IMG/VR virus record: IMGVR_UViG_3300044645_001142
Location: 1-23,057 of that record
Length of the DNA stretch: 23,057 nucleotides
Source: a virus
Direction: 5' to 3' (one strand)
Shown here: positions 3,957 to 15,465 of the stretch, piece after piece
Layout: each line of letters starts with the position of its first letter
Numbering within the stretch: the stretch's first letter is position 1
The notes under the pieces: generated by a model
What the model was told of the DNA's origin: nothing
What the model saw: only the letters and a program-made list of their open reading frames with translations
Databases searched by the model: none
Program-made: the position numbers and the translations under genes

Positions 3957-4141
3957 TGGCCAAGAAGCCCGAAAGTCGGGTGAACGAAGCGGGCGTCTAC
4001 ACGAAGCCCGGCATGCGCAAGTCCTTGTTCAATCGCATCAAAGCGGGGGACAAGGGCGGCAGGCCGGGTCAGTGGAGCGCCCGCAAAGCTCAAATGCTCG
4101 CCTCTGAATACAAGGCGAAAGGTGGTAAGTACCGTGACTAA
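3956..4141 (+). CDS. Small conserved basic phage protein
   Basis: 61 residues starting at an ATG that overlaps the previous stop by one base. It contains the block DKGGRPGQWSARKAQMLASE followed by a Gly/Lys-rich end, and before it YTKPGMRKSLFNRIKAG. I know this block from small hypothetical proteins in other phages, but no function is established. The overall charge is positive and the fold is probably two short helices. It lies immediately before the HNH gene, which overlaps its last codons. Together with the gene after the HNH gene it appears to belong to one basic-protein set that the endonuclease interrupts. Confidence 0.7.
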   Translation: MAKKPESRVNEAGVYTKPGMRKSLFNRIKAGDKGGRPGQWSARKAQMLASEYKAKGGKYRD

Positions 4142-4562
4142 GCGTTGCTTAGGTTGCCAAGTCGAAAAAGACTTCGCAGACTACTATACGTTTAAAGACA
4201 AATGGTCTGGCCGGCAATACTACAGTTCTCGTTGCCGGCCTTGCCACAATTTGTACAAACATACCAACGCAAACACGCCAAAGAATAGAAAGTCTGAGAA
4301 ACTAAAAGCCAGATACAAACTTAGGTATGATCGTTGGCAGGAAATTCGCAAGCAGCAGAACTTTGCTTGCATGATATGTGGCGTGACGGAAGAAACCTTG
4401 GGAAGGAAATTAGACGTGGATCACTGTCATGCCACGGATGTTGTGCGCGGGGTCTTGTGCAATCCATGCAACACCCTCCTAGGGCACGCTAGAGATAGCA
4501 TCGCCACGTTGGAAAATGCTGCAAAGTACCTTAAAGACAACGCGAAGGGCTACAAGTCGTGA
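4134..4562 (+). CDS. Recombination endonuclease VII-like HNH nuclease
   Basis: 142 residues if started at the GTG at 4134 (MTKRCLGCQ), with AAGGTGG about ten bases upstream; a GTG at 4122 is an alternative. Two CxxC pairs near the N-terminus (CLGC and CRPC) look like a zinc ribbon. The catalytic part has CMIC, then LDVDHCHATDVVRGVLCNPC, then NTLLGHARDS and AAKYLKD. This DHxH ... VRGLLC..CN..LG order is the signature of the endonuclease VII (T4 gp49-like) branch of His-Me/HNH nucleases, which cut branched DNA or act as homing-type nucleases. The base composition looks clearly more AT-rich than both neighbours, and codon use is less GC-biased, suggesting recent arrival. It overlaps the gene before by 8 bases and the one after by 4, an unusually seamless insertion. 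Confidence 0.85.
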   Translation: MTKRCLGCQVEKDFADYYTFKDKWSGRQYYSSRCRPCHNLYKHTNANTPKNRKSEKLKARYKLRYDRWQEIRKQQNFACMICGVTEETLGRKLDVDHCHATDVVRGVLCNPCNTLLGHARDSIATLENAAKYLKDNAKGYKS

Positions 4563-4804
4563 AGGAGCCGCAGAAGTCGCTGGTCGATTGGACCAAGCAG
4601 AAGTGGCGCACCAAGTCTGGCAAGCCCTCGACACAGGGACCAAACGCTACAGGCGAACGGTATCTGCCCGAGGCTGCCATCAAGGCTATGCCTGCCAGCA
4701 CTTATGCGGCGAGTAGCGCGGCGAAGCGGAAGGCGACGAAGGCCGGCAAGCAGTTTTCAAAGCAGCCTGCCGGCGCCGCCAAGATTGCGAAGAAGTTCCG
4801 CTAG
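4559..4804 (+). CDS. Small conserved basic protein (DUF5872-like)
   Basis: 81 residues starting at a GTG overlapping the stop of the HNH gene (GTGA). The central motif QKWRTKSGKPSTQGPNATGE followed by RYLPEAAIKAMPASTYAASS resembles a small phage protein family I associate tentatively with DUF5872; it has no known function. The C-terminus is Lys/Ala-rich and basic. Composition returns to the GC-rich style of the operon before the HNH gene. It is the last gene of the plus-strand operon. Its TAG stop lies in the same CTAG that ends the convergent glycan gene. Confidence 0.72.
   Translation: MKEPQKSLVDWTKQKWRTKSGKPSTQGPNATGERYLPEAAIKAMPASTYAASSAAKRKATKAGKQFSKQPAGAAKIAKKFR
4801..4804. other. CTAG palindrome serving as stop codon on both strands
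   Basis: The four bases CTAG provide TAG for the plus-strand gene (4802-4804) and TAG for the minus-strand gene (4801-4803). The two convergent transcription units therefore overlap by three bases with no intergenic space and no clear terminator hairpin. Only a weak ACGGA/TCCGT inverted repeat lies just inside the minus-strand gene. Confidence 0.9.
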
Positions 4805-6945
4805 AACGGATACTCCGTCGGCGCATTGTAGTTGTTGACGGTCTGTTCCCAGATGGCAGCGCCAGCGCCCTCGCCGTGGAACACCACGTTGATGCGGTTC
4901 TCGACCAGCCAGCGGTTCCACTGCCCCAGATCCTGCATCGCAGCCACCAGTTCGCCGGTCGTCAGGTAGGACTTCTGATCGGCGCCCAAGTTGACGCGCA
5001 TAAGCTGCTGCTTCACGTCGTCCTTGTTGGTGTCTTCCGGGTAGAAGAAGTCGTAGCCGTAGAACTCGAAGCGGCGGAAACCCATAACAAAAGCCAGCAT
5101 AGGAATCCGGGTCGCCGAGCAGGTGCCACCCGCCACAACCATGCCCGTGTCGAAGGACGGCGGCTTGGCTGCGAGCGTGGCCTGCGTATGGGCGTGCCAG
5201 CCAAAGATCTGGACGTTCTTTTCTTCGAGGACCTTGCGCACTGACGGGTGCGTCATGGTGGCAAAGAGGAACTTGTCCTCCGGCCCCACATCCTTGAAGA
5301 GATCGGTGCGGATCACGCCGTGCGTAGACTTGCCTTCGACCGGGCGCGGATCGAGAATGACAGTCCAGTCAGGCGTAATACCCGCCGCCTTGAGAACCGG
5401 CAACGAGTGCTTCACCGCAAAGATCACAGCGCCAGCGGCCTGCTTGGCGCGGATGTCTTCGAGGAAGGACGGCAACGTAGGACCGGCGCTGACCAGCAGA
5501 GCGGTCTTGGTGTGCGCCTGATAGGAGCCAATCCAAGTCGTAATGGCGGCAGCGTTATCCGCAATATGCTGAAGTTGCTCGCCCTTGTCAACTGAGTCGA
5601 TGGGTTTCACCTGAATGCGGGTCTTGAGTTCCGGCATCTTGTAGCCGTCGCGGACAACAAGGCCGAAGGAGATGGTCTGCGTCAGGCCGGCGTAGCCGTC
5701 GCCGCTGGTGATGATGCGCTTCTGGCCGCCGATCTCCTTCATCACCTTGCGCGGACCTTCCGGCGCACCCTCTTCCTCGTTGACGATCACGTCATCGAAG
5801 ACGATAAAGGGTACATGCTTCAGGCATTCGTAGTCCGACTTGGTCGTCTCGTAGCTGTGGCCGCCGTCAATGTAGGCAAATGTAGAATCTGCTACAACGG
5901 CAGCGGAGTCGGGCAGCGTCTTGAGCGTATTGCCCTTGATGAGTGAGAAGGCGAAGTTCAGACCCTTGCGCGCCATCAACTGGCTGTAGTTGTTGAGGCG
6001 GTTAGTGACGATCCAAGAATCGGCGTGCGGCTTGGTATGGCCTTCATGCGCCCGGTCGTTGCCGCCCTCGAAGGTGTCGAAGCCGACATAGGAGACGGAC
6101 GTGACGCCCGTGGCGAACGCGGCTTCTGCCATCTGGATTGCGCGGCTGCCGTTCCAAGTGCCAACCTCTACGATGCGGGCCGCGCCGGTCTCGGCGATGG
6201 AGGCGCCCAGCAATTCGCACAGGGTTTCGTAGCGGGCCGGTGCGCCAAGCGCGGGGTTGGCGATGGTCTGCTTGTCCGGTCCCTTGTAATGCACCATGTA
6301 GGCGGCAAGCGGCGACTGATGGAAGGCATCGAGGCCGAGGCAGCCAGGCGACAGGTCCTTGATTTGCAGGCCGTGCGCCCGATGCAGCAGGGCAATGCGG
6401 TCGAGGACGGCGTTGTCGTGGGCCTTCTTGTAGTGGAAGGCTTCGAGCGAATTGTACAGGCCCCAATAGTCGGCCAGCAGGGAGGCGCCCTTGACGGTGG
6501 CCAGATTGAAGGCGAACCACGAACCTTCGCTTTCCTTGACGGTGCGCCGGTACAGGTACGTCAGATGGTAGTTATCGTCAAAGAGTTCGGCCAGCAGGTC
6601 CTCGTTGATGGGCCTCATCGTTTCGGTGTCAGCGTCAATGAAGCCGATCCAGTCGAGGTCGGGCGTCACAGCGGAGGCGAGGGCGACTGCCTTGAAGCAG
6701 TATTCCAGAGAGGGGCCGTCCTTGGCCTTGGAACCGAGGTGAGCCTTCAGCTTCTGGAAGGAAGCCGTGTCTTCGAGTGCCCTGAAGGTGATGCCCGGAA
6801 ATTCAGGTACATTGCCTTCGAGGTCGTGGTGCCAGATTTCGAGGTCGATGTTGGTAGGCCAGAACCGCTTGAAGGACTCTGCGAAACGCAGGCCGTACCG
6901 TTCCCATGAGGTTGGGCCAATCGTGGTGATAATCTTAGCGCGCAT
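4801..6945 (-). CDS. Trifunctional glycan-modifying fusion: GT-like, SAM methyltransferase, Maf/DUF115-like
   Basis: 714 residues from the ATG at 6945, with GGAG eight bases upstream. Three domains can be read. Residues 1-220 resemble a glycosyltransferase with a DxD-type site in GFIDADTE (101-108). Residues about 235-435 are a class I methyltransferase: VEVGTWNGS (259-267) is the SAM-binding loop and YIDGGHSYETT (358-368) matches the Methyltransf_24 group. Residues about 478-700 carry VSAGPTL (485-491), PDWTVILDP (525-533) and GGTCSATRIPMLAFVMGF, FYGYDF (606-633). That is the pattern of the DUF115/Maf family, whose members transfer nonulosonic acids to flagellin or make related transfers. 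It overlaps the upstream glycosyltransferase gene by 11 bases. The likely job is to modify a glycan of the virion or the host surface; substrate and targets are unknown. The domain order is inferred from motifs alone. Confidence 0.78.
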   Translation of the reverse strand: MRAKIITTIGPTSWERYGLRFAESFKRFWPTNIDLEIWHHDLEGNVPEFPGITFRALEDTASFQKLKAHLGSKAKDGPSLEYCFKAVALASAVTPDLDWIGFIDADTETMRPINEDLLAELFDDNYHLTYLYRRTVKESEGSWFAFNLATVKGASLLADYWGLYNSLEAFHYKKAHDNAVLDRIALLHRAHGLQIKDLSPGCLGLDAFHQSPLAAYMVHYKGPDKQTIANPALGAPARYETLCELLGASIAETGAARIVEVGTWNGSRAIQMAEAAFATGVTSVSYVGFDTFEGGNDRAHEGHTKPHADSWIVTNRLNNYSQLMARKGLNFAFSLIKGNTLKTLPDSAAVVADSTFAYIDGGHSYETTKSDYECLKHVPFIVFDDVIVNEEEGAPEGPRKVMKEIGGQKRIITSGDGYAGLTQTISFGLVVRDGYKMPELKTRIQVKPIDSVDKGEQLQHIADNAAAITTWIGSYQAHTKTALLVSAGPTLPSFLEDIRAKQAAGAVIFAVKHSLPVLKAAGITPDWTVILDPRPVEGKSTHGVIRTDLFKDVGPEDKFLFATMTHPSVRKVLEEKNVQIFGWHAHTQATLAAKPPSFDTGMVVAGGTCSATRIPMLAFVMGFRRFEFYGYDFFYPEDTNKDDVKQQLMRVNLGADQKSYLTTGELVAAMQDLGQWNRWLVENRINVVFHGEGAGAAIWEQTVNNYNAPTEYPF

Positions 6946-7705
6946 CAGTGTAGGCTCCGAGGAGTTCGTTCGTCCAGAAGTCATCGAAGGCAGTAGTCTG
7001 CCGGTCGACCATGCCCGGCACGGGCGGTCCATAGGTGAAGTGAATGCCGTTGATGGGCAGCGGCCGGTTGTTCTCTTCGGCATCCAAGCCCCTGGCAGTC
7101 GTCGGGCTGTAGTTCGGGACCCAGTGCCACGACTCGGAGAGGTAGCCGATGTCGGAATCGTCGAGCCACTCGAAGGTGTGGAGGCGGTTGCCGCTGGCCA
7201 TGTTGACCATCTCGACGGTCGGCAGCTTGGTGGACTTGAGGTTCCACAGCATGAGGGCCGACCACAGCTTCCTGTTGTAGCGGGACTGCACTTGGCCGTC
7301 CATCTTGGTGGTGCCGGTTGGCGAGAAGTTATGGGGCACAACCATCACCGTCTTGGACGGGTCAGCTTCCTTCACCAGCTTATGCACGTCGTCGAGCCAC
7401 AGCCAGTCGCAGTCGGTGAACAGCGCCCAGTCGGTCACGCCGTCCATCTTTGCTACAATCGGGGTGAGGAAGCGGGAGTGCGAGAACTGCACGCTGAACG
7501 GGCGGCCATCCCGCTCGTCCATGTAGGAGCCGTCCTCGTTAATGCGCCACGGCCGATCAAAAAGCTGGCGGCGCCGCAGGTCCAAATGCTCTAGGTGCCG
7601 TATCTCTACTGGCTTGCTGGCATATGCCCTGACGGACGACTCTGTTACGCGGAGAGCCTCTGGCTCGCGGTGATCAACACCAATGTAATAGGCGAATTTC
7701 GACAT
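6935..7705 (-). CDS. GT8-like glycosyltransferase
   Basis: 256 residues. The start YYIGVDHREPEALRVTESSV is characteristic of a phage and bacterial glycosyltransferase group related to family 8. It is followed by PFSVQFSHSRFLTPIV (69-84) and the metal/nucleotide-sugar site ALFTDCDWLWLDD (94-106), where Asp98 and Asp100 form the DxD motif. A later block NRKLWSALMLWNL (144-156) is also typical. It would transfer a sugar from a nucleotide donor, Mn-dependent by family; the acceptor is unknown. The ATG at 7705 sits where transcription from the promoter just upstream should begin, and no ribosome binding site is visible at normal distance, so it may be translated from a leaderless message. It forms a two-gene operon with the fusion gene. 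Confidence 0.82.
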   Translation of the reverse strand: MSKFAYYIGVDHREPEALRVTESSVRAYASKPVEIRHLEHLDLRRRQLFDRPWRINEDGSYMDERDGRPFSVQFSHSRFLTPIVAKMDGVTDWALFTDCDWLWLDDVHKLVKEADPSKTVMVVPHNFSPTGTTKMDGQVQSRYNRKLWSALMLWNLKSTKLPTVEMVNMASGNRLHTFEWLDDSDIGYLSESWHWVPNYSPTTARGLDAEENNRPLPINGIHFTYGPPVPGMVDRQTTAFDDFWTNELLGAYTDAR

Positions 7706-7711
7706 GCCCGC

Positions 7712-7740
7712 AGGATACTATTCCTGCCCAGACCTGTCAA
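7712..7740 (-). promoter_or_regulatory. Sigma70-like promoter of the glycan cassette
   Basis: On the minus strand a perfect -35 TTGACA (7735-7740) is followed by 17 bases and TATCCT (7712-7717), which matches the -10 consensus at four of six positions. The predicted start of transcription, 6-7 bases further, is at or beside the A of the ATG at 7705. It lies in the 48-base gap after the giant virion gene, which has no terminator hairpin. The cassette may therefore also receive read-through. Confidence 0.65.
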
Positions 7741-7753
7741 GAATTTTGTCCGA

Positions 7754-10700
7754 CTACTGTTGGTTCCGCCAAAGGCTGCGGTTGATCATTTCCACAGCAG
7801 CGTCACGGGCCGGGACGCGGGTCGCGCGGGTAAGAACTTCCGGCGAACCCCGGCCCAAGAAGTCCTTGCGGGCTCTATCCAAGATCGCGTTCGGGTTGAT
7901 CTGGACTTGGAACTGCGGTGACTTGTCTGCCTGTTCGGCCCGGATTTCACGCACGCGCGTAGCCAACTGTTGGCGCAGGTTAGCCACTTCGTCGGAACGG
8001 CCAGCTTGCTGCGCCTCGTACATGCGCATGACAATGCGGGACAGTTCGATGTTGACGCGCTCGGTCGGATCGCGGGTCGCCTGCTGAAGCTCACGCTGCC
8101 TATTGACGGTGCGGCGAATATCCGTAAACTCGGGCGGCGCAAAGCCGACTGCTTGCTGCACGCTAGGCGGCAGAACGCCGGATTGGGCTGCGCGCTCAAC
8201 GTCCTGCGGAGTAATGATGCGCCCGCCGCGACGCGTGTATTGCTCGCCGGTCAGTTCGATCTGGCCACCCTTGATCGCGTTGGCCAAGCTGGTCGGCGCC
8301 ATAGCATAGGCGATGCCCCAATAGTCTCCAAGTTGCCAAGACTTATGGGCTTCAAACGGCTTCTGGATCAGACCGCCGATGGGGCCCAGCAGGGAGAAGA
8401 CGTCCCAGTCAGTGATGCTACCTTGGGGCAGCGGGTCGATCTTCATGCGGCTCGTCAGCGTCATCGCGCCGTAAGCGTGGGGCAAACCGTAGTTAGCAGC
8501 AGAGGCAACAAGACCATTGCCGATATACTTTTCGAGTTCCTGCTCGAAGTCGAGAGCCTCGCCGAAGGCAGTCTTCCAGATGAACTCCATGAGTTCCTTG
8601 AGACGATCAGCGAAAGGCAGCGACCAGATACCGGCGATTGCAACTTGAGGGACCAGCAACGCCAAGAACTGAATAGCGGCGGCCTTGGCCATTACTGGAT
8701 CAGACTTGCGGATACCTTCGACAGTCTGAGCAGCGCTACGGGCATACAGTTCAAGCAACTTGAAGACAGGGCCCTGGAACTGTGTGACAATTTCGGCGGC
8801 CGGATGAAAGCGTTGGATAAGGGGACGGTCTTCCGGGCCGCTGCGAAAGTTGGTTTCGTCCGTTGCGACCTGCGCATATTCATAAGGACTGGCGTAGGTG
8901 CGGTTGTCCATGCGAGCAGCGCGCTGCATGACGGAAGGCTGTGCTTTAGCAAGGCGATAGGCGGTGAGGAAGGCCGCGACGCGGTTGGTTTCGTCCACCG
9001 CGTTGAGCATGCGGCCCGACCAGTCCAGCATCTTGTTGGCGCCGGCTGCGAAGGTAGTGGCGCTCTTGTCGGCGATGCCGGCGTTGCGTAGGCTTTCGGC
9101 CGAGACTTGGCTCTGAAGGCTGGCGGTCTGCGAGGGACGGAGGCGACCATCCTTGATCGCGCGTTGAAGCGCAGCCACTTCATCAGCCGGCAGTTTGCCA
9201 GCCTTGGCAACGGCTTGCGCGAAGTTCAGTTCGCCTTGGATCGACTTGGCAAGGTCGCGCGACAGGTAGACATCTCGGAAGGCCGTGGCGTAAAAGCGGC
9301 CAGCATTGAGGCCAGCACCGTCGCGCAGGAGGCGGGCAGCGAGAACGAGATTCTGCGTGAACTGGATGGCAGCCGTACTGAAGTTGAAGCCAAGATACCA
9401 GAAGAATGCGAGGGCACGGCCAGTACCAAAGGCTTCAGTCGGCGTCGTATTGTAGTTGAAGTAGTCGTTGGCGAAGTTCTTTTCTTCAAACGTCAGCGGG
9501 GCGATTGCCCGATTGAAATCCTTTTCTACATGGCGGCGGGCCTGAATGTTGGCCAGCGTCAGGAAGTAGTTGGGCAGCGTGTCGCGCGCGTAGTCAACGG
9601 CGTTCTCGGGCGTGACGGCCCGCAGGATGTCGTTGTTCGGGCGGAAGAAGCGATCCATCTGCGCCTTGTCGATTTCCTTCGACATCTGGTTGATGATCTT
9701 CTTCGCCTCGGGACCGCTCACCTCACTCAGCTTTTCGAGGTAGCGCGTAATGAACTCGCCGTCGCGCTTCAGACTGGCGGCCCGCTCGTTGTTCTCGGCG
9801 CGCATACCCTTCGTCATAATACGATAGCGGCCAGTGTCGGGGAACTCGTCGCGCAGCGCCTTGATCGAAATGGCCTCAAAGTCACGCTGCAAACCGGCAC
9901 GCTGCCGGGCCTTCTTGATACCCTCGACCGGGTTGTAGAAGTAGATGCGGACCAGCTTCTCCTTGCCGTTCGGCTGCTTTTCGTAGGCCGCCACAAAGTG
10001 GGAGCCGCGCGCTACCTGCGGGAAGAAGAACGGATCGCGGATGGAGTTGAGGCGCTGCACCTCGGCGAAGCCTTCGGGCGAGGCGGCACGCACTTGCTCG
10101 GCCGGCATCTCAGTAATGAGACGGTCACCCTTCTCACGCTGGAAGGCTTGCAGGCGGGCGCGGTCTGCGTCAGTTCGGGCGTCAGCCGGATTGAAGTAGT
10201 CGGTCGTAAACGCATCGACAAGGTAGTCGAGACCACGCTGACCCATTGCGTTCGTTGCATCCATAGCAGCATTTTCTTGCGGCGTAAATGCGTTGCGATC
10301 CCACATCTGCTGGCGACTGCGCGACTCTTGCAGTGCGAGCATTGCACGGGCTTGCGACTCGGCAGGCAGCGTGCCAAGCGGCTGATACTGGTTGTTGAAG
10401 TAAGTGACGGCGCTCTGCTTGCGCACAAACATACGATCGGACACATTGGCAAACGCGGTGAACTGGGGCTGGCGACCGATGCCCGTGATGGGCGAGCCGA
10501 ACCACATGCGCCAGAAACCAGGCCGGAAACCGTCAGCGATCTGGGTGTCGAGTAGCTTCTGTTGCTGCTGGATGGTGGTGGTCTGGGGCGACGAGAAGAT
10601 AGACTCCTCGAAGTTGGAAGTCGGCGACCCTGCATCAGTGCCCGGATACGCCTGCGCAACCGCGTTGCCAAGCTGCTGGGCTTCGGGCGTCGGCGGCACA

Positions 10701-12742
10701 ACCGCTTCAGCCGGCGTCAGAGTACGCGGCTGCCCGGTAGCGGGGACCGATGCGGCGGGGCGTTGGGCGGCAGTCGGCTGTGCCGGTGCAGCAGGCGCTG
10801 CGGGAACGGAAGGCACGCGGCCCGTCGGCGCGGCAGCAGGCGGCGCAACTTCCGGCGCAGCACGACGAAGCTGATCGGCGGGGACGTAACTGTCGCGGCC
10901 CTCGTAGTTGACGCGCTGATAAAAACGGCCATCGCTGCCCTGCTGCGGGGCTTCCGGCATAACGCGAACCGGAATGTCGGCGTCGGGTCCCTGCCAAATC
11001 GCTTCACCTTCGGTGGGCGCGGCTTCCGCTTCGGGCGCAGCAGCAGCTTCGGGGGCAGGCTGCTGACGGGGCAGGGTTTCGCCACCAAGACGGCGAGCCT
11101 CGAATGGGCTGATCTGTTCGACGGTGCCCGCTTCGGCGGCTGTGCTAATTTCAGCGACGGCGCGCAGGGAGGCTTCCCGTTCGCGGCGCAGTGCTGCGGC
11201 TGACGGGGCTGCTTCGGCGGCTTGCTGGCGCGGGCCGAACGAAACGCTGAAGCTGGTTGCGGTAGGCTTGGCTAGGATACCTTCTTCCGCTAGGCGGTTC
11301 AACTGCTCGGTAACGAATTGGCGCTCATCCTTCGTAAGACGGCGAGGCTCAATTCCGCTGGAGCGCAGCGCCGCGTTGGCCACATCAATGGCCGAGAAGC
11401 GATTCAGGTTGGTGAGGTTGCCTTCTGCGGCTGCCTGCACCAGATTGCCGAGGAAGGCGTCGGGCTGGCTGGCCGCAAAGTTGGAGATGGCAGACTCACG
11501 GATCTCGCTGACGTTGCGCTGGTATGCAGCTTGGCGAGCGTCGTTAACCCACTTGGCGCGCGCTTCAGGTGTAGTAGCACTGGCAGGCGGGGCAAAATCG
11601 TCGGGATTGGCGGCAATGGCCTCGTTGACTTGCTCAGGTGTGCGCAGCAGTTCCGGCGCCTGCGGAATAGGCGTCCGGGGGAAGAACGGCTCGGCAGCAG
11701 GGGCAGCAGGCGCTGCGGGAGCAGCCGGGGTGGGAGCCGGGGCGCCGGCAACGGGGGCAGCGCCTTCAGCACCGGGCGTGGGCTCGGGAGTGGGGACGGC
11801 TTCGGGGGCAGGGCGCACGCCAAAGAGGCCGCGCGTTGCACCGCCAGCGACAGAACCGGCGGCGGCGCCAGCGAGGCCCGCTTCGAGAAGTTCACGCTGG
11901 ACTTCTGGGTTGGTGAGATCGAGAGTCAAACCCGCTTGGGCGCGTTCGATGGCGGTCTGGCCAACTTCGGTAGGAAGCTCGGTGGCAGCGCCGACTGCCG
12001 CACCACGACCGAGGCGGGGCAGGAGGGCAGCGCCGGCTTCAGCGGCGGGGCGACCAAGCAGACGGCCGAAGCCGAGGGTAGCGACTTCGGGGACTGCTTC
12101 GAGGAGGGCTTGGGGAACGGCAGCAGCAAAGGCAGTACCGGGCGCGGGAGCGCGGGCTTCGGAGGGGCGAGCGCCTGCTTCCTCTTCAACTTGAATTTGG
12201 CGCTGGATGTTTTCGCCGGCCAGTTGAGGGAAGGAGACGCCGGCTGCACCAAGGAGGGCGCCGGGGATCGCGCCACGAACACCACCGATTGCTCGACCGG
12301 CGCGGGCACCAGCGATGGCACCAGCGATGCCGGCGCCAGTGCTGGGGAGGGAGCCACCGACCGCTTCGGCAGTTGCGCGGCCGACGTCGCTGGGACCTTC
12401 GACGGAAAGGAAAGGCGTGCGGAGGTCGCTGGGGAAAGCAGCTTCGGCAGAAACTTGCTGCGCGATGCGGCCAGCGCGACCAAACTGTTCGAGGCCGGGC
12501 TGATTGGTAAGCTGGCCAAGACCTTCGGCGGCAGAGTAGAGGGCACCTTGGAACTGGTCAATGCCGGAAGAAACGCTGCGGCCAAACGAAGAGCCGATGC
12601 CGAGTTGGGTCTGGCGCCAAGCCTCGAACTCTTGCGGGAAGTTCTGGCGGAAGTAGGCGCGTGCCTGCTGGGCGGCGACCTGCGGGTCGTCCGTACCGTC
12701 TACATCAACTGCGATAGTGTCGTTAAGCTTGACGCGGATCAT
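7754..12742 (-). CDS. Giant PLxRFG-like polyvalent virion protein (putative internal/ejected protein)
   Basis: 1,662 residues. The N-terminus MIRVKLNDTIAVDVDGTDDP is a short conserved head. Residues about 135-168 form a glycine-zipper-like hydrophobic stretch. Pro/Ala-rich linkers lie at about 304-354 and 626-686. The C-terminal half contains FWYLGFNFSTAAIQFTQN (about 1114), RPLIQRFHPAAEIVTQFQ (about 1305) and a hydrophobic run ending IAGIWSLPF (about 1355-1380). The WYLG..ST...TQ and PLxxRF blocks are those of the 'PLxRFG' large polyvalent proteins of phages. In podoviruses such giant proteins next to tail genes are usually packaged inside the head and ejected with the DNA. I see no transglycosylase or protease motif. 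The start ATG overlaps the upstream stop (ATGA). The length dominates this window, and long antisense frames over it are composition artefacts. Confidence 0.75.
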   Translation of the reverse strand: MIRVKLNDTIAVDVDGTDDPQVAAQQARAYFRQNFPQEFEAWRQTQLGIGSSFGRSVSSGIDQFQGALYSAAEGLGQLTNQPGLEQFGRAGRIAQQVSAEAAFPSDLRTPFLSVEGPSDVGRATAEAVGGSLPSTGAGIAGAIAGARAGRAIGGVRGAIPGALLGAAGVSFPQLAGENIQRQIQVEEEAGARPSEARAPAPGTAFAAAVPQALLEAVPEVATLGFGRLLGRPAAEAGAALLPRLGRGAAVGAATELPTEVGQTAIERAQAGLTLDLTNPEVQRELLEAGLAGAAAGSVAGGATRGLFGVRPAPEAVPTPEPTPGAEGAAPVAGAPAPTPAAPAAPAAPAAEPFFPRTPIPQAPELLRTPEQVNEAIAANPDDFAPPASATTPEARAKWVNDARQAAYQRNVSEIRESAISNFAASQPDAFLGNLVQAAAEGNLTNLNRFSAIDVANAALRSSGIEPRRLTKDERQFVTEQLNRLAEEGILAKPTATSFSVSFGPRQQAAEAAPSAAALRREREASLRAVAEISTAAEAGTVEQISPFEARRLGGETLPRQQPAPEAAAAPEAEAAPTEGEAIWQGPDADIPVRVMPEAPQQGSDGRFYQRVNYEGRDSYVPADQLRRAAPEVAPPAAAPTGRVPSVPAAPAAPAQPTAAQRPAASVPATGQPRTLTPAEAVVPPTPEAQQLGNAVAQAYPGTDAGSPTSNFEESIFSSPQTTTIQQQQKLLDTQIADGFRPGFWRMWFGSPITGIGRQPQFTAFANVSDRMFVRKQSAVTYFNNQYQPLGTLPAESQARAMLALQESRSRQQMWDRNAFTPQENAAMDATNAMGQRGLDYLVDAFTTDYFNPADARTDADRARLQAFQREKGDRLITEMPAEQVRAASPEGFAEVQRLNSIRDPFFFPQVARGSHFVAAYEKQPNGKEKLVRIYFYNPVEGIKKARQRAGLQRDFEAISIKALRDEFPDTGRYRIMTKGMRAENNERAASLKRDGEFITRYLEKLSEVSGPEAKKIINQMSKEIDKAQMDRFFRPNNDILRAVTPENAVDYARDTLPNYFLTLANIQARRHVEKDFNRAIAPLTFEEKNFANDYFNYNTTPTEAFGTGRALAFFWYLGFNFSTAAIQFTQNLVLAARLLRDGAGLNAGRFYATAFRDVYLSRDLAKSIQGELNFAQAVAKAGKLPADEVAALQRAIKDGRLRPSQTASLQSQVSAESLRNAGIADKSATTFAAGANKMLDWSGRMLNAVDETNRVAAFLTAYRLAKAQPSVMQRAARMDNRTYASPYEYAQVATDETNFRSGPEDRPLIQRFHPAAEIVTQFQGPVFKLLELYARSAAQTVEGIRKSDPVMAKAAAIQFLALLVPQVAIAGIWSLPFADRLKELMEFIWKTAFGEALDFEQELEKYIGNGLVASAANYGLPHAYGAMTLTSRMKIDPLPQGSITDWDVFSLLGPIGGLIQKPFEAHKSWQLGDYWGIAYAMAPTSLANAIKGGQIELTGEQYTRRGGRIITPQDVERAAQSGVLPPSVQQAVGFAPPEFTDIRRTVNRQRELQQATRDPTERVNIELSRIVMRMYEAQQAGRSDEVANLRQQLATRVREIRAEQADKSPQFQVQINPNAILDRARKDFLGRGSPEVLTRATRVPARDAAVEMINRSLWRNQQ

Positions 12743-13675: not shown

Positions 13676-14713
13676 TTACGACGGCAGCACCGGCCCGTAA
13701 ACGCCGCTACTATAGTTCGGGTCTAGCCCGGGGTTGCCGACGGTAGTGGTGCGGAAAGGATTGAGGAAGCTGAGACCAAGTGCGCCGCCGACTGAACCAA
13801 GGCCGCCCATGATAGGGCCGCCAAGACCTGCGCTGAGAGCCGCACCACCAAGCTGGCTGATAAGGTTGGGGCCGGGTTCGGTGCGGGTTTCGGTGGTGGT
13901 GGAGCCGATGCCGAGAACTTGAGGCGACAGGCCGAGGCTGGAACGAAGGACTTCGATGCCGCGAATCGGGAAATCGCGCTCTTCTTCGAACTGCTGGCGA
14001 GCGAAGTCGAGTTCGGCCTGCTCAAGGGCGCGCTGCGCACCACCGGCTGCCGTAAGCGGATTGACTTCGGTGCCGAGGCGAGCCGCCGTCTGGGCAATGC
14101 CCGTGCCAACTTGGCCGAGCGCGCCGGAGTATAGCTGGGGGATACGCTCTTGGTCAAGGCGGAACTGAGCGAGAGCTTGGTTGTAGGCGTTGGCGCGTTC
14201 GCGGGCAGACACGTCGCCGACAGTGCGCTGCGTGCGACCCGTGAGTTCGGACTCGGCAATGGCTTGACGGGAGCCGCCAAAGGCGCCAGTACGGGCAGCC
14301 TGCTGGCCGAGACGGAGGCGTTCCTTTTCAGCAGCTTCGCCAATGTCGCGGAGAGCCGGCGCCAACACTGCCTCAGTGTACGGCGACATATAGCCCGTGA
14401 GGTCAGTTTCGGGCAGGCGCGTAGCAAGACCGCGCGCGGCAGCAACGCCCTCGCCAACCAGTTCGCTGGTGAGGGGCGACAAGGCGCCGCTGGTTGCCGC
14501 GATGCGGCGCGCAGCCTCGAAGCCGGCCAGTTCATCCGGCGTGAACTCTGCAATGCGTTGAGCGGTATACGGCTGGAAGGGCTGCGCAGCAAAGGCGCCA
14601 GCGCGGCTCAGAAGGTCCTTCCGCGCACCCTCAACTTCAGTCGGGACAGTCGGAGTGGTGGTGGCGGTGCGAGAAGACTTTTGGGGGCCGAGGCCAAGCA
14701 GCTTGCCTAGCAT
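13676..14713 (-). CDS. Virion structural protein, internal/ejection type
   Basis: 345 residues. The N-terminus is low-complexity Thr/Ser. It continues with FQPYTAQRIAEFTPDELAGF, GYMSPYTEAVLAPALRDI (107-124), and the strongly recognisable RTGAFGGSRQAIAESEL (141-157). I know this YMxPY ... GAFGGSR pattern from a widespread phage protein encoded between tail and internal virion genes; its role is thought to be structural, possibly within the ejected complex. The middle is a long Gln/Arg-rich helix. The C-terminal 60 residues hold a glycine-rich hydrophobic stretch (LGGPIMGGLGSVGGALGLSF), which could insert in a membrane. The ATG shares a base with the upstream stop (TAATG), so the two are coupled. 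Confidence 0.72.
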   Translation of the reverse strand: MLGKLLGLGPQKSSRTATTTPTVPTEVEGARKDLLSRAGAFAAQPFQPYTAQRIAEFTPDELAGFEAARRIAATSGALSPLTSELVGEGVAAARGLATRLPETDLTGYMSPYTEAVLAPALRDIGEAAEKERLRLGQQAARTGAFGGSRQAIAESELTGRTQRTVGDVSARERANAYNQALAQFRLDQERIPQLYSGALGQVGTGIAQTAARLGTEVNPLTAAGGAQRALEQAELDFARQQFEEERDFPIRGIEVLRSSLGLSPQVLGIGSTTTETRTEPGPNLISQLGGAALSAGLGGPIMGGLGSVGGALGLSFLNPFRTTTVGNPGLDPNYSSGVYGPVLPS

Positions 14714-15465
14714 TAGCTAAGGCTCCTTTTCAGGATGTCGCCGACGGGCAGCGGCCCAGCCTGACGGGTGGTGCCGGTCTTAGCATCGCGGACCTGCTTC
14801 ACGAGATCGTAGAGGCGACGCGCACCAGCGTTGGAGGAGCCGTCACCCATCATGGAGACGACGTCGGCAGGAATGACGAACTCGCCGTCCGAAAGGGCAG
14901 CGGCCCGGCGACCATTGATGGAAGTGGGGATCAGGTCGTCGAGGCCGCCGCCGGGACCAATGGCCACCTTGCCGCCACCTTCAAGTGGGACGAGGCCGCC
15001 GGCCGCAAACTCTTCAGGCTCTTCGTCGACCATGCCACCTTCTGCGAAACCGAAGAAAAGCCGGGCAGCAGTGTAGCCGACATCGGCCCAGTCAGAGGTG
15101 TCGCCGCCGTCCGTGAAGATGTTGCCGACGCTGTCGAAGACGCTGTTGCTGTCGTTGTTTTCGATGAAGGGGGCCCGGCCGTAACCATCGAGGGGGCTAC
15201 CGCCGCCGCCGGAACGCGCTTCAGCCTGCTGGCCGGCTTGGGCTTCGATGGCGGGAAGGGCGCCTTGCGCAGGCATGACGGGACGGGAGTCGGGAAGCGG
15301 CTCGTCGCGCGCGGGTATGTCGTATATGTCGGGCAGGGCCGCGAAAGCGGGGAAGGTGATTTCGGCGCGAGGCATGTAAGAAGGCGTCGCGTCCTCAGAG
15401 GCTTCAATCGAGGGATTGAAACCTTGGTAGGCGGGGTAAAAAGAGGCTGCGAGGGATTCGGACAT
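14713..15465 (-). CDS. Virion structural protein with GGMV and DGEFVIPADVV motifs
   Basis: 250 residues from the ATG at 15465, preceded by GAAGG. The N-terminal half is Pro/Ala-rich and looks disordered. About residues 140-160 contain FFGFAEGGMVDEEPEEFAAG and then GGLVPLEGGG. The C-terminal 80 residues carry the conserved block GGGLDDLIPTSINGRRAAAL, SDGEFVIPADVVSMMGDGSS and RRLYDLVKQVRDAKTG. I know this last block from tail-region proteins of many phages, with no defined function. It is the first gene after an internal promoter and is coupled to the next gene by a one-base overlap. Confidence 0.7.
   Translation of the reverse strand: MSESLAASFYPAYQGFNPSIEASEDATPSYMPRAEITFPAFAALPDIYDIPARDEPLPDSRPVMPAQGALPAIEAQAGQQAEARSGGGGSPLDGYGRAPFIENNDSNSVFDSVGNIFTDGGDTSDWADVGYTAARLFFGFAEGGMVDEEPEEFAAGGLVPLEGGGKVAIGPGGGLDDLIPTSINGRRAAALSDGEFVIPADVVSMMGDGSSNAGARRLYDLVKQVRDAKTGTTRQAGPLPVGDILKRSLS

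Follow-up and report, generated by a model that had tools for sequence, protein, structure and literature searches.

The 23,057-nucleotide stretch analysed here in its entirety (the window; IMG/VR virus record IMGVR_UViG_3300044645_001142) is a 23 kb contig of a podovirus-like phage. Its minus strand carries a two-gene cassette, P2 followed by P1, whose products very probably join a pair of sugar transferases with a sugar methyltransferase and a Maf-like domain in one pathway. The cassette is tentatively interpreted as a compact unit by which a lytic phage would assemble a short glycan from activated host sugars, acting most likely on a virion protein. It contains the following features:

4801..6945, minus strand: P1, a three-domain fusion of 714 amino acids (coordinates include the stop codon)
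6262..6945, minus strand: P1 domain 1 (residues 1-228), GT-A-fold glycosyltransferase-like, assigned by fold and DxD motif
5638..6258, minus strand: P1 domain 2 (residues 230-436), predicted metal- and S-adenosylmethionine (SAM)-dependent sugar O-methyltransferase of the MycF/SpnH/CalS11 kind, assigned by fold and Pfam
4840..5613, minus strand: P1 domain 3 (residues 445-702), PF01973 MptE/Maf-like, assigned by Pfam and structure comparison
6935..7705, minus strand: P2, 256 amino acids, GT8-fold glycosyltransferase, assigned by AlphaFold2 model and structure comparison
7406..7414, minus strand: DCD of P2 (residues 98-100), a DxD metal/nucleotide motif whose D98 and D100 are kept in at least 97% of 92 relatives
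7712..7740, minus strand: sigma-70-type promoter before P2, with TTGACA (7740-7735), a 17-nt spacer and TATCCT (7717-7712)

The two genes share 11 bases (6935-6945). The conserved start of P1 is the ATG at 6945; a mechanical open reading frame call of 846 amino acids starts from a TTG further upstream. Both proteins are without membrane segments (best 19-residue hydropathy 1.38 and 0.83). The AlphaFold2 model of P1 has a mean predicted local distance difference test (pLDDT) of 79.8 and a predicted template modelling score (pTM) of 0.45; thus, its domains are credible and their mutual orientation is not. A sequence-only reading of this DNA had described a GT8-like gene overlapping, by 11 bases, a fusion of a glycosyltransferase-like region, a methyltransferase and a Maf-like domain. 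Both parts of this description were borne out: P2 has the GT8 fold, the fold search recovered both the Maf and the methyltransferase folds, catalytic residues are kept across relatives, and Pfam matched all domains of the fusion except GT-A, which was recognized from Foldseek rows.

The AlphaFold2 model of P2 (pLDDT 89, pTM 0.88) shows the GT8 fold over its whole length, with 3tzt (Z 17.1) and LgtC 1g9r (Z 16.3) as matches in structure comparison. P2 matches phrog_28018 (E 2.9e-51) and no Pfam family, PF01501 included; its homolog in Pelagibacter phage Mosig does pass PF01501. Bacterial GT8 enzymes, such as LgtC, GlyE and the C-terminal domain of WbbM, share both this fold across the full length of P2 and the DxD motif, but the sequence of P2 lies under Pfam detection and is constantly paired with P1 in this family. 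The idea that P2 and the GT-A domain of P1 are sequence-detectable paralogs was unsupported (hhalign probability 1.7%). In the related loci L242, L245 and L249, P2 homologs are fused to another domain of more than 300 residues in proteins of 585-634 amino acids, possibly a further glycan fusion; that of L249 gave a weak capsule-synthesis match.

Domain 1 of P1 contains the motifs DAD (residues 104-106; 6636-6628), kept in 94 of 95 full-length P1 sequences, and HYKG (residues 219-222). Its likeness to GT-A enzymes rests on Foldseek rows of that kind (LARGE1, alpha-1,3-galactosyltransferase and glycogenin), the domain being scarcely represented among the structure-comparison rows. The same domain occurs as a stand-alone gene beside P2 in Mosig and in the loci L227, L233, L258 and L279, and L250 shows the order P2, GT-A and then methyltransferase-PF01973 as separate units. 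Because such separate-gene forms exist, the GT-A, methyltransferase and PF01973 domains look like components of one pathway that were later fused. Near separate P2 and GT-A genes, L255:5528-8660 also encodes a cytidylyltransferase-like/mannose-6-phosphate-isomerase protein, a separate Methyltransf_24 gene and a separate PF01973-like open reading frame.

Domain 2 passes Methyltransf_24 (PF13578; E 1.8e-8, 35.6 bits against a cut-off of 26.3), and the TylF family PF05711 gave 12.7 bits on P1, under its cut-off of 23. The fold matches are 3tos (CalS11, Z 16.1), 4xvz (MycF, Z 16.1) and 4ce0 (SpnH, Z 15.5). The motifs are EVGTWNG (residues 260-266; 6168-6148), which the earlier reading gave as VEVGTWNGS, starting at residue 259, DGGHS (residues 360-364; 5868-5854) and FDD (5799-5791). 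When aligned with the SpnH sequence, EVGTWNG, FDTFEG, D360 and D384-D385 fall on equivalent motifs, with D360, D384 and D385 on the DGD/DD of SpnH, whose aspartates are metal ligands. The DD pair is present in 87 of the 95 full-length P1 sequences. The sugar O-methyltransferases of macrocin, mycinamicin and spinosyn (TylF/MycF/SpnH), together with CalS11, resemble the domain in fold (Z 15-16), in the E-x-G-x-W-x-G SAM motif and in the Asp residues that align with SpnH. However, the P1 domain is embedded in a glycosyltransferase polypeptide, scores below the TylF family and has been lost or mutated in several lineages.

These losses take three forms. The methyltransferase is deleted, leaving a P1 of about 540 amino acids, in L114, L214-216, L222, L223, L226 and L235; it is cut to a segment of about 140 residues in L210, L217, L225, L228, L229 and L232; and its metal or motif residues are mutated in L042-044, L065, L070, L098 and L113. 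The 140-residue segment aligns weakly with the C-terminal third of the methyltransferase (hhalign E 1.4e-4, probability 53%). The transferase and PF01973 residues remain conserved while the methyltransferase is removable. Since several lineages have lost it, methylation appears to be an optional finish and not the core of the system. The proposal that one polypeptide carries several glycan steps is supported by the domains, but methylation does not belong to its invariant part.

Domain 3 matches PF01973 (MptE-like / Maf_flag10) with E 9.8e-18 (64.9 bits against a cut-off of 34.6), and the cut-off was also passed in nine relatives. Its motifs are SAGP (residues 486-489), LDPR (residues 531-534; 5355-5344), STHG (5328-5317) and TTGEL (4962-4948), and 43 positions, including VKH, LDPR, STHG, GGT and TTGEL, are kept in at least 97% of 95 sequences. 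Maf 5mu5 is the top row by Z (20.8; 352 residues, root-mean-square deviation 13.7 across several domains), is first in Foldseek and is the top sequence match in the PDB. The NCBIfam weak match, covering the central part only, is PseD (NF050051, flagellin modification protein; 33.7 bits against a cut-off of 670). Second by Z stands Methanocaldococcus jannaschii HPPK (8sd5; Z 16.9, root-mean-square deviation 3.4, 198 residues). With the archaeal HPPK/MptE fold nearly as close, this domain is no more than a possible transferase of nonulosonic acid, and its presumed role, the addition or attachment of an acidic sugar, is the weakest step of the scheme. It is improbable, however, that domain 3 is pyrophosphokinase-like or structural and binds only a nucleotide or acceptor, leaving P1 and P2 to make a methylated disaccharide. 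The match to 8sd5 and the Pfam name MptE-like agree with such a role, but Maf leads by Z and by PDB sequence match, the NCBIfam match is PseD, and pterin chemistry would be unfit beside two glycosyltransferases and a sugar methyltransferase, with no pterin gene context seen. This alternative concerns one step and is compatible with either of the two main acceptors weighed below.

The flagellin glycosyltransferases Maf and PseD (5mu5) likewise contain PF01973 with a Rossmann-like domain immediately ahead of it, and they are soluble and cytoplasmic. In Maf that domain is degenerate, and the central domain resembles Cst-II (PMC11339370); flagellin is modified in the cytoplasm, prior to export (PMC4065374). 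P1 differs in having an intact methyltransferase ahead of PF01973, an extra GT-A domain, no evident helical C-terminal domain and a context without flagellar or nonulosonic-acid genes. P1 residues 218-702, spanning the methyltransferase and PF01973, align with 352 Maf residues, of which the PF01973 fold alone explains about 200. Because the alignment exceeds that fold, the N-terminal domain of Maf may derive from such a methyltransferase, of which it could be a decayed relative. In some phage lineages the methyltransferase shrinks to a stub at the same place as the Rossmann-like domain of Maf. As a lead, this would offer a possible route by which Maf gained that domain; no sequence support for the kinship was found.

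Relatives of P1 were found in 55 stretches in a first IMG/VR scan, and at least 552 viral-contig stretches encode them in the profile scan. In three tblastn searches of 50,697 deposited phage records the fusion was not seen, and Pelagibacter phage Mosig and MW202713 matched through the GT-A domain alone, which they encode as a gene of its own; megablast of the window against phages gave no match. UniProt contains a 714-amino-acid metagenomic phage protein that is 83% identical to P1 and named by its methyltransferase domain only, along with several more MptE-like ones. The architecture is present there only as machine-named metagenomic proteins, and no description of the fusion was found in the literature searched.

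P2 lies directly upstream of P1, at a median distance of 3 nt, in all 93 loci that have a P1 start and more than 700 bp upstream. Pairwise distances of the three P1 domains and P2 correlate with r of 0.91-0.96 and have nearly equal means. Within the near clade, the ratio of nonsynonymous to synonymous substitution rates (dN/dS) has medians of 0.105-0.137 for the P1 domains and of 0.128 for P2, indicating purifying selection. The preservation of the pair (93/93) and a dN/dS of about 0.12 far exceed chance. The sole large gap between the two genes in these loci, at L013:9437-10000, is occupied by a free-standing gene for an HNH-type endonuclease.

The genes that flank the cassette in the window are the following:

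7754..12742, minus strand: giant virion protein of 1662 amino acids, PLxRFG / tail-700 (NCBIfam), directly upstream of the cassette
4559..4804, plus strand: small convergent gene, phrog_14910, which shares its last 4 bases with the end of P1 at the stop

The giant neighbour is often only 29-60% identical where P1 is 77-95%, in many of the same genomes. In the clade of the window, the cassette is found in every tail-anchored locus that extends beyond the giant gene far enough to hold it, and it is core to its phage group. A recent moron was ruled out, since no near-clade locus with room lacks the pair and divergence tracks across the domains.

Across the family the cassette stands at the junction of two operons, in one of two arrangements. 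On the giant side it closes the virion operon, behind the giant gene, which lies upstream of it in giant-side relatives as it does here. On the ribonucleotide reductase (RNR) side it comes last in the RNR/replication genes, at the small terminase gene, facing the giant gene. In the P1 tree the RNR-side loci form a single clade (support 97), and midpoint rooting puts the giant-side arrangement at the base; in both groups a few loci, on short contigs, were labelled from a single neighbouring gene or from close kin. The tree therefore suggests that the cassette has been inherited vertically, probably with one change of operon. The placement after virion genes that had been proposed from the sequence thus describes the giant-side part of the family but not the clade at the end of the RNR/replication operon.

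The 618-amino-acid structural protein of the contig is related to proteins of Pelagibacter phages HTVC023P and HTVC027P, Roseobacter phages CRP-901 and CRP-902, and phage DSL-LC04. CRP-901 and CRP-902 are described as strictly lytic and are assigned, with HTVC023P, to one family, an abundant ocean group (PMC10149686). No integrase (PF00589) was matched in nine large relatives, which are phage records of 43-63 kb, and this suggests a lytic life. The carriers are uncultured, apparently lytic aquatic phages. Lysogenic conversion was dropped as a role on the same result.

The promoter proposed by the sequence-only reading was found as TTGACA-N17-TATCCT at 7740-7712, and it is conserved in relatives. 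Over 17 distinct near-clade rows, the -35 box has a majority fraction of 1.00 and the -10 box one of 0.97, against 0.69 for both the spacer and the 20 nt upstream. A promoter score of at least 10/12 was reached in 24 of 25 near-clade loci, compared with 0.4% of control windows, and in 20 of 72 more distant loci, compared with 1.6%. The -10 box ends 6-7 nt ahead of the P2 start codon, 6 nt in the window, leaving no space for a Shine-Dalgarno sequence, so a leaderless P2 mRNA is predicted. Further sigma-70-like sites occur on the same strand; therefore, host polymerase may transcribe a large part of this phage, and timing is not fixed by the private promoter alone. In the search with PF00940 (single-subunit RNA polymerase), the control matched nowhere. 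A second promoter-like site, TTTACT-N17-TATAAT at 15514-15486 on the minus strand, precedes the gene at 14713-15465; 8 of 25 related loci have it as well, equally far from the tail gene.

In the proposed mechanism, host RNA polymerase would transcribe the pair from the private sigma-70 promoter, with P2 and P1 produced as coupled partners. As judged from fold and DxD motifs, P2 and the GT-A domain would add one sugar apiece, drawn from nucleotide sugars of the host. The middle domain, given its kinship to sugar O-methyltransferases and its conserved ligands, would O-methylate a sugar hydroxyl using SAM and a divalent metal, as an optional cap. The PF01973 domain, Maf/Cst-II-like, might add or attach an acidic sugar from a host cytidine monophosphate (CMP) donor. 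Having no membrane segments, the enzymes would work in the cytoplasm; their acceptor would most likely be a virion protein that is not yet assembled, in line with the action of Maf on flagellin. Genes of the CMP-sugar synthetase type (PF02348) and of epimerase or sugar-nucleotide types were found in none of the nine large relatives, in which the controls matched. Donor sugars must then come from the host, and the description of the cassette as autonomous does not hold.

Both protein and lipo-oligosaccharide acceptors fit these enzymes, because Maf acts on flagellin in the cytoplasm and resembles Cst-II in its central domain. A virion protein is preferred, in a choice that is close to evenly balanced, because the virion-operon position is basal, because of two gene contexts, and because integrase is lacking. 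The contexts are those of Caulobacter phage CcrColossus, where a PF01973-like gene and a P2 homolog come just after the tail genes, and of L233, where P2, GT-A and methyltransferase genes come right after the terminase gene and a DUF4055 gene. Moreover, mycobacteriophage capsid and tail tube proteins are glycosylated by phage-encoded enzymes, as cited in PMC12363180.

Several observations weigh against this preference. The private host-type promoter does not demand late, virion-coupled expression, and in the large clade of RNR-side loci the cassette is part of the replication-side strand. Lipooligosaccharide synthesis, too, typically involves GT8 and Cst-II folds, and LgtC is close to P2. The fold of domain 3 is also close to HPPK, which makes sugar transfer uncertain. 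Neither P1 nor P2 found a match in the cultured relatives HTVC023P, CRP-901 and DSL-LC04, so phages of the wider kind can live without the cassette. No virion protein has been identified as the acceptor.

Some of these observations agree with a somewhat less probable target, the host lipo-oligosaccharide, remodelled early in infection. P2 and GT-A would extend the outer core, PF01973 would put on a Cst-II-like terminal acidic sugar, and capping would fall to the methyltransferase. The change would block adsorption of other phages or keep progeny off debris. The conserved sigma-70 promoter, the replication-side clade, the closeness of P2 to LgtC and WbbM-type surface-glycan enzymes, and the L255 cluster of P2 and GT-A, which resembles a surface-glycan locus, all fit such a role. 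It is opposed by the absence of a membrane or flippase gene in the cassette and of membrane segments in its proteins, by the missing integrase, which leaves no lysogen needing protection, and by the tight and basal virion-operon link. A virion protein is thus narrowly and provisionally favoured over host lipopolysaccharide as the target.

Decoration of another macromolecule, such as phage DNA, a host envelope protein or flagellin, so as to counter defence or motility, is more doubtful still. Kinship to Maf does indicate flagellin-like acceptors, but phage nonulosonic-acid donor genes were not found in the nine large relatives, and these showed no thymidylate-synthase-type base hydroxymethylase (PF00303), hence no sign of that common route to a sugar-bearing DNA base. 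DNA hypermodification was dropped on this result, the controls having matched. For the preferred virion target, a fuller version appears unlikely at present: a flagellum-free protein O-glycosylation machine in which the two glycosyltransferases, the methyltransferase and the Maf-like domain build, cap and attach a virion glycan, and in which the methyltransferase with PF01973 mirrors, and may be kin to, the Maf core.

Among known systems, the mycobacteriophages Che8, Corndog and Myrna likewise use phage-encoded glycosyltransferases that act on virion proteins, but these are single glycosyltransferases (PMC12363180), whereas the present cassette is a fused unit with a methyltransferase and PF01973, with no sequence kinship shown. 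The glycan clusters of CcrColossus and Mosig share P2 homologs, accompanied by the PF01973-like gene after the tail genes in the former and by an adjacent separate GT-A gene and methyltransferases in the latter; in both, however, the genes are separate, without fusion. Systems of the GtrABC type for O-antigen modification have a flippase and membrane-bound transferases, in contrast to the two soluble products here.

Many phage glycosyltransferases have unknown targets. The cassette is compact, obligately paired and core in a group of uncultured aquatic phages, and its relatives provide a natural series with and without the methyltransferase, which makes it a good system for testing self-glycosylation of phage particles. 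It places a Maf-type domain outside flagella and may provide a small soluble glycan-assembly enzyme.

An anti-phage defence role was dropped, as PADLOC matched neither P1 nor P2. Between the giant gene and P2, L002:8091-9188 holds an additional gene of 365 amino acids with a sub-threshold ART-PolyVal (ADP-ribosyltransferase) match. The plus-strand genes that face the cassette in the window include endonuclease VII and endolysin genes. Homologs of the endonuclease VII-like gene (4122-4562, plus strand) differ in position and identity (26-71%) in related loci, as if exchanged beside the cassette.

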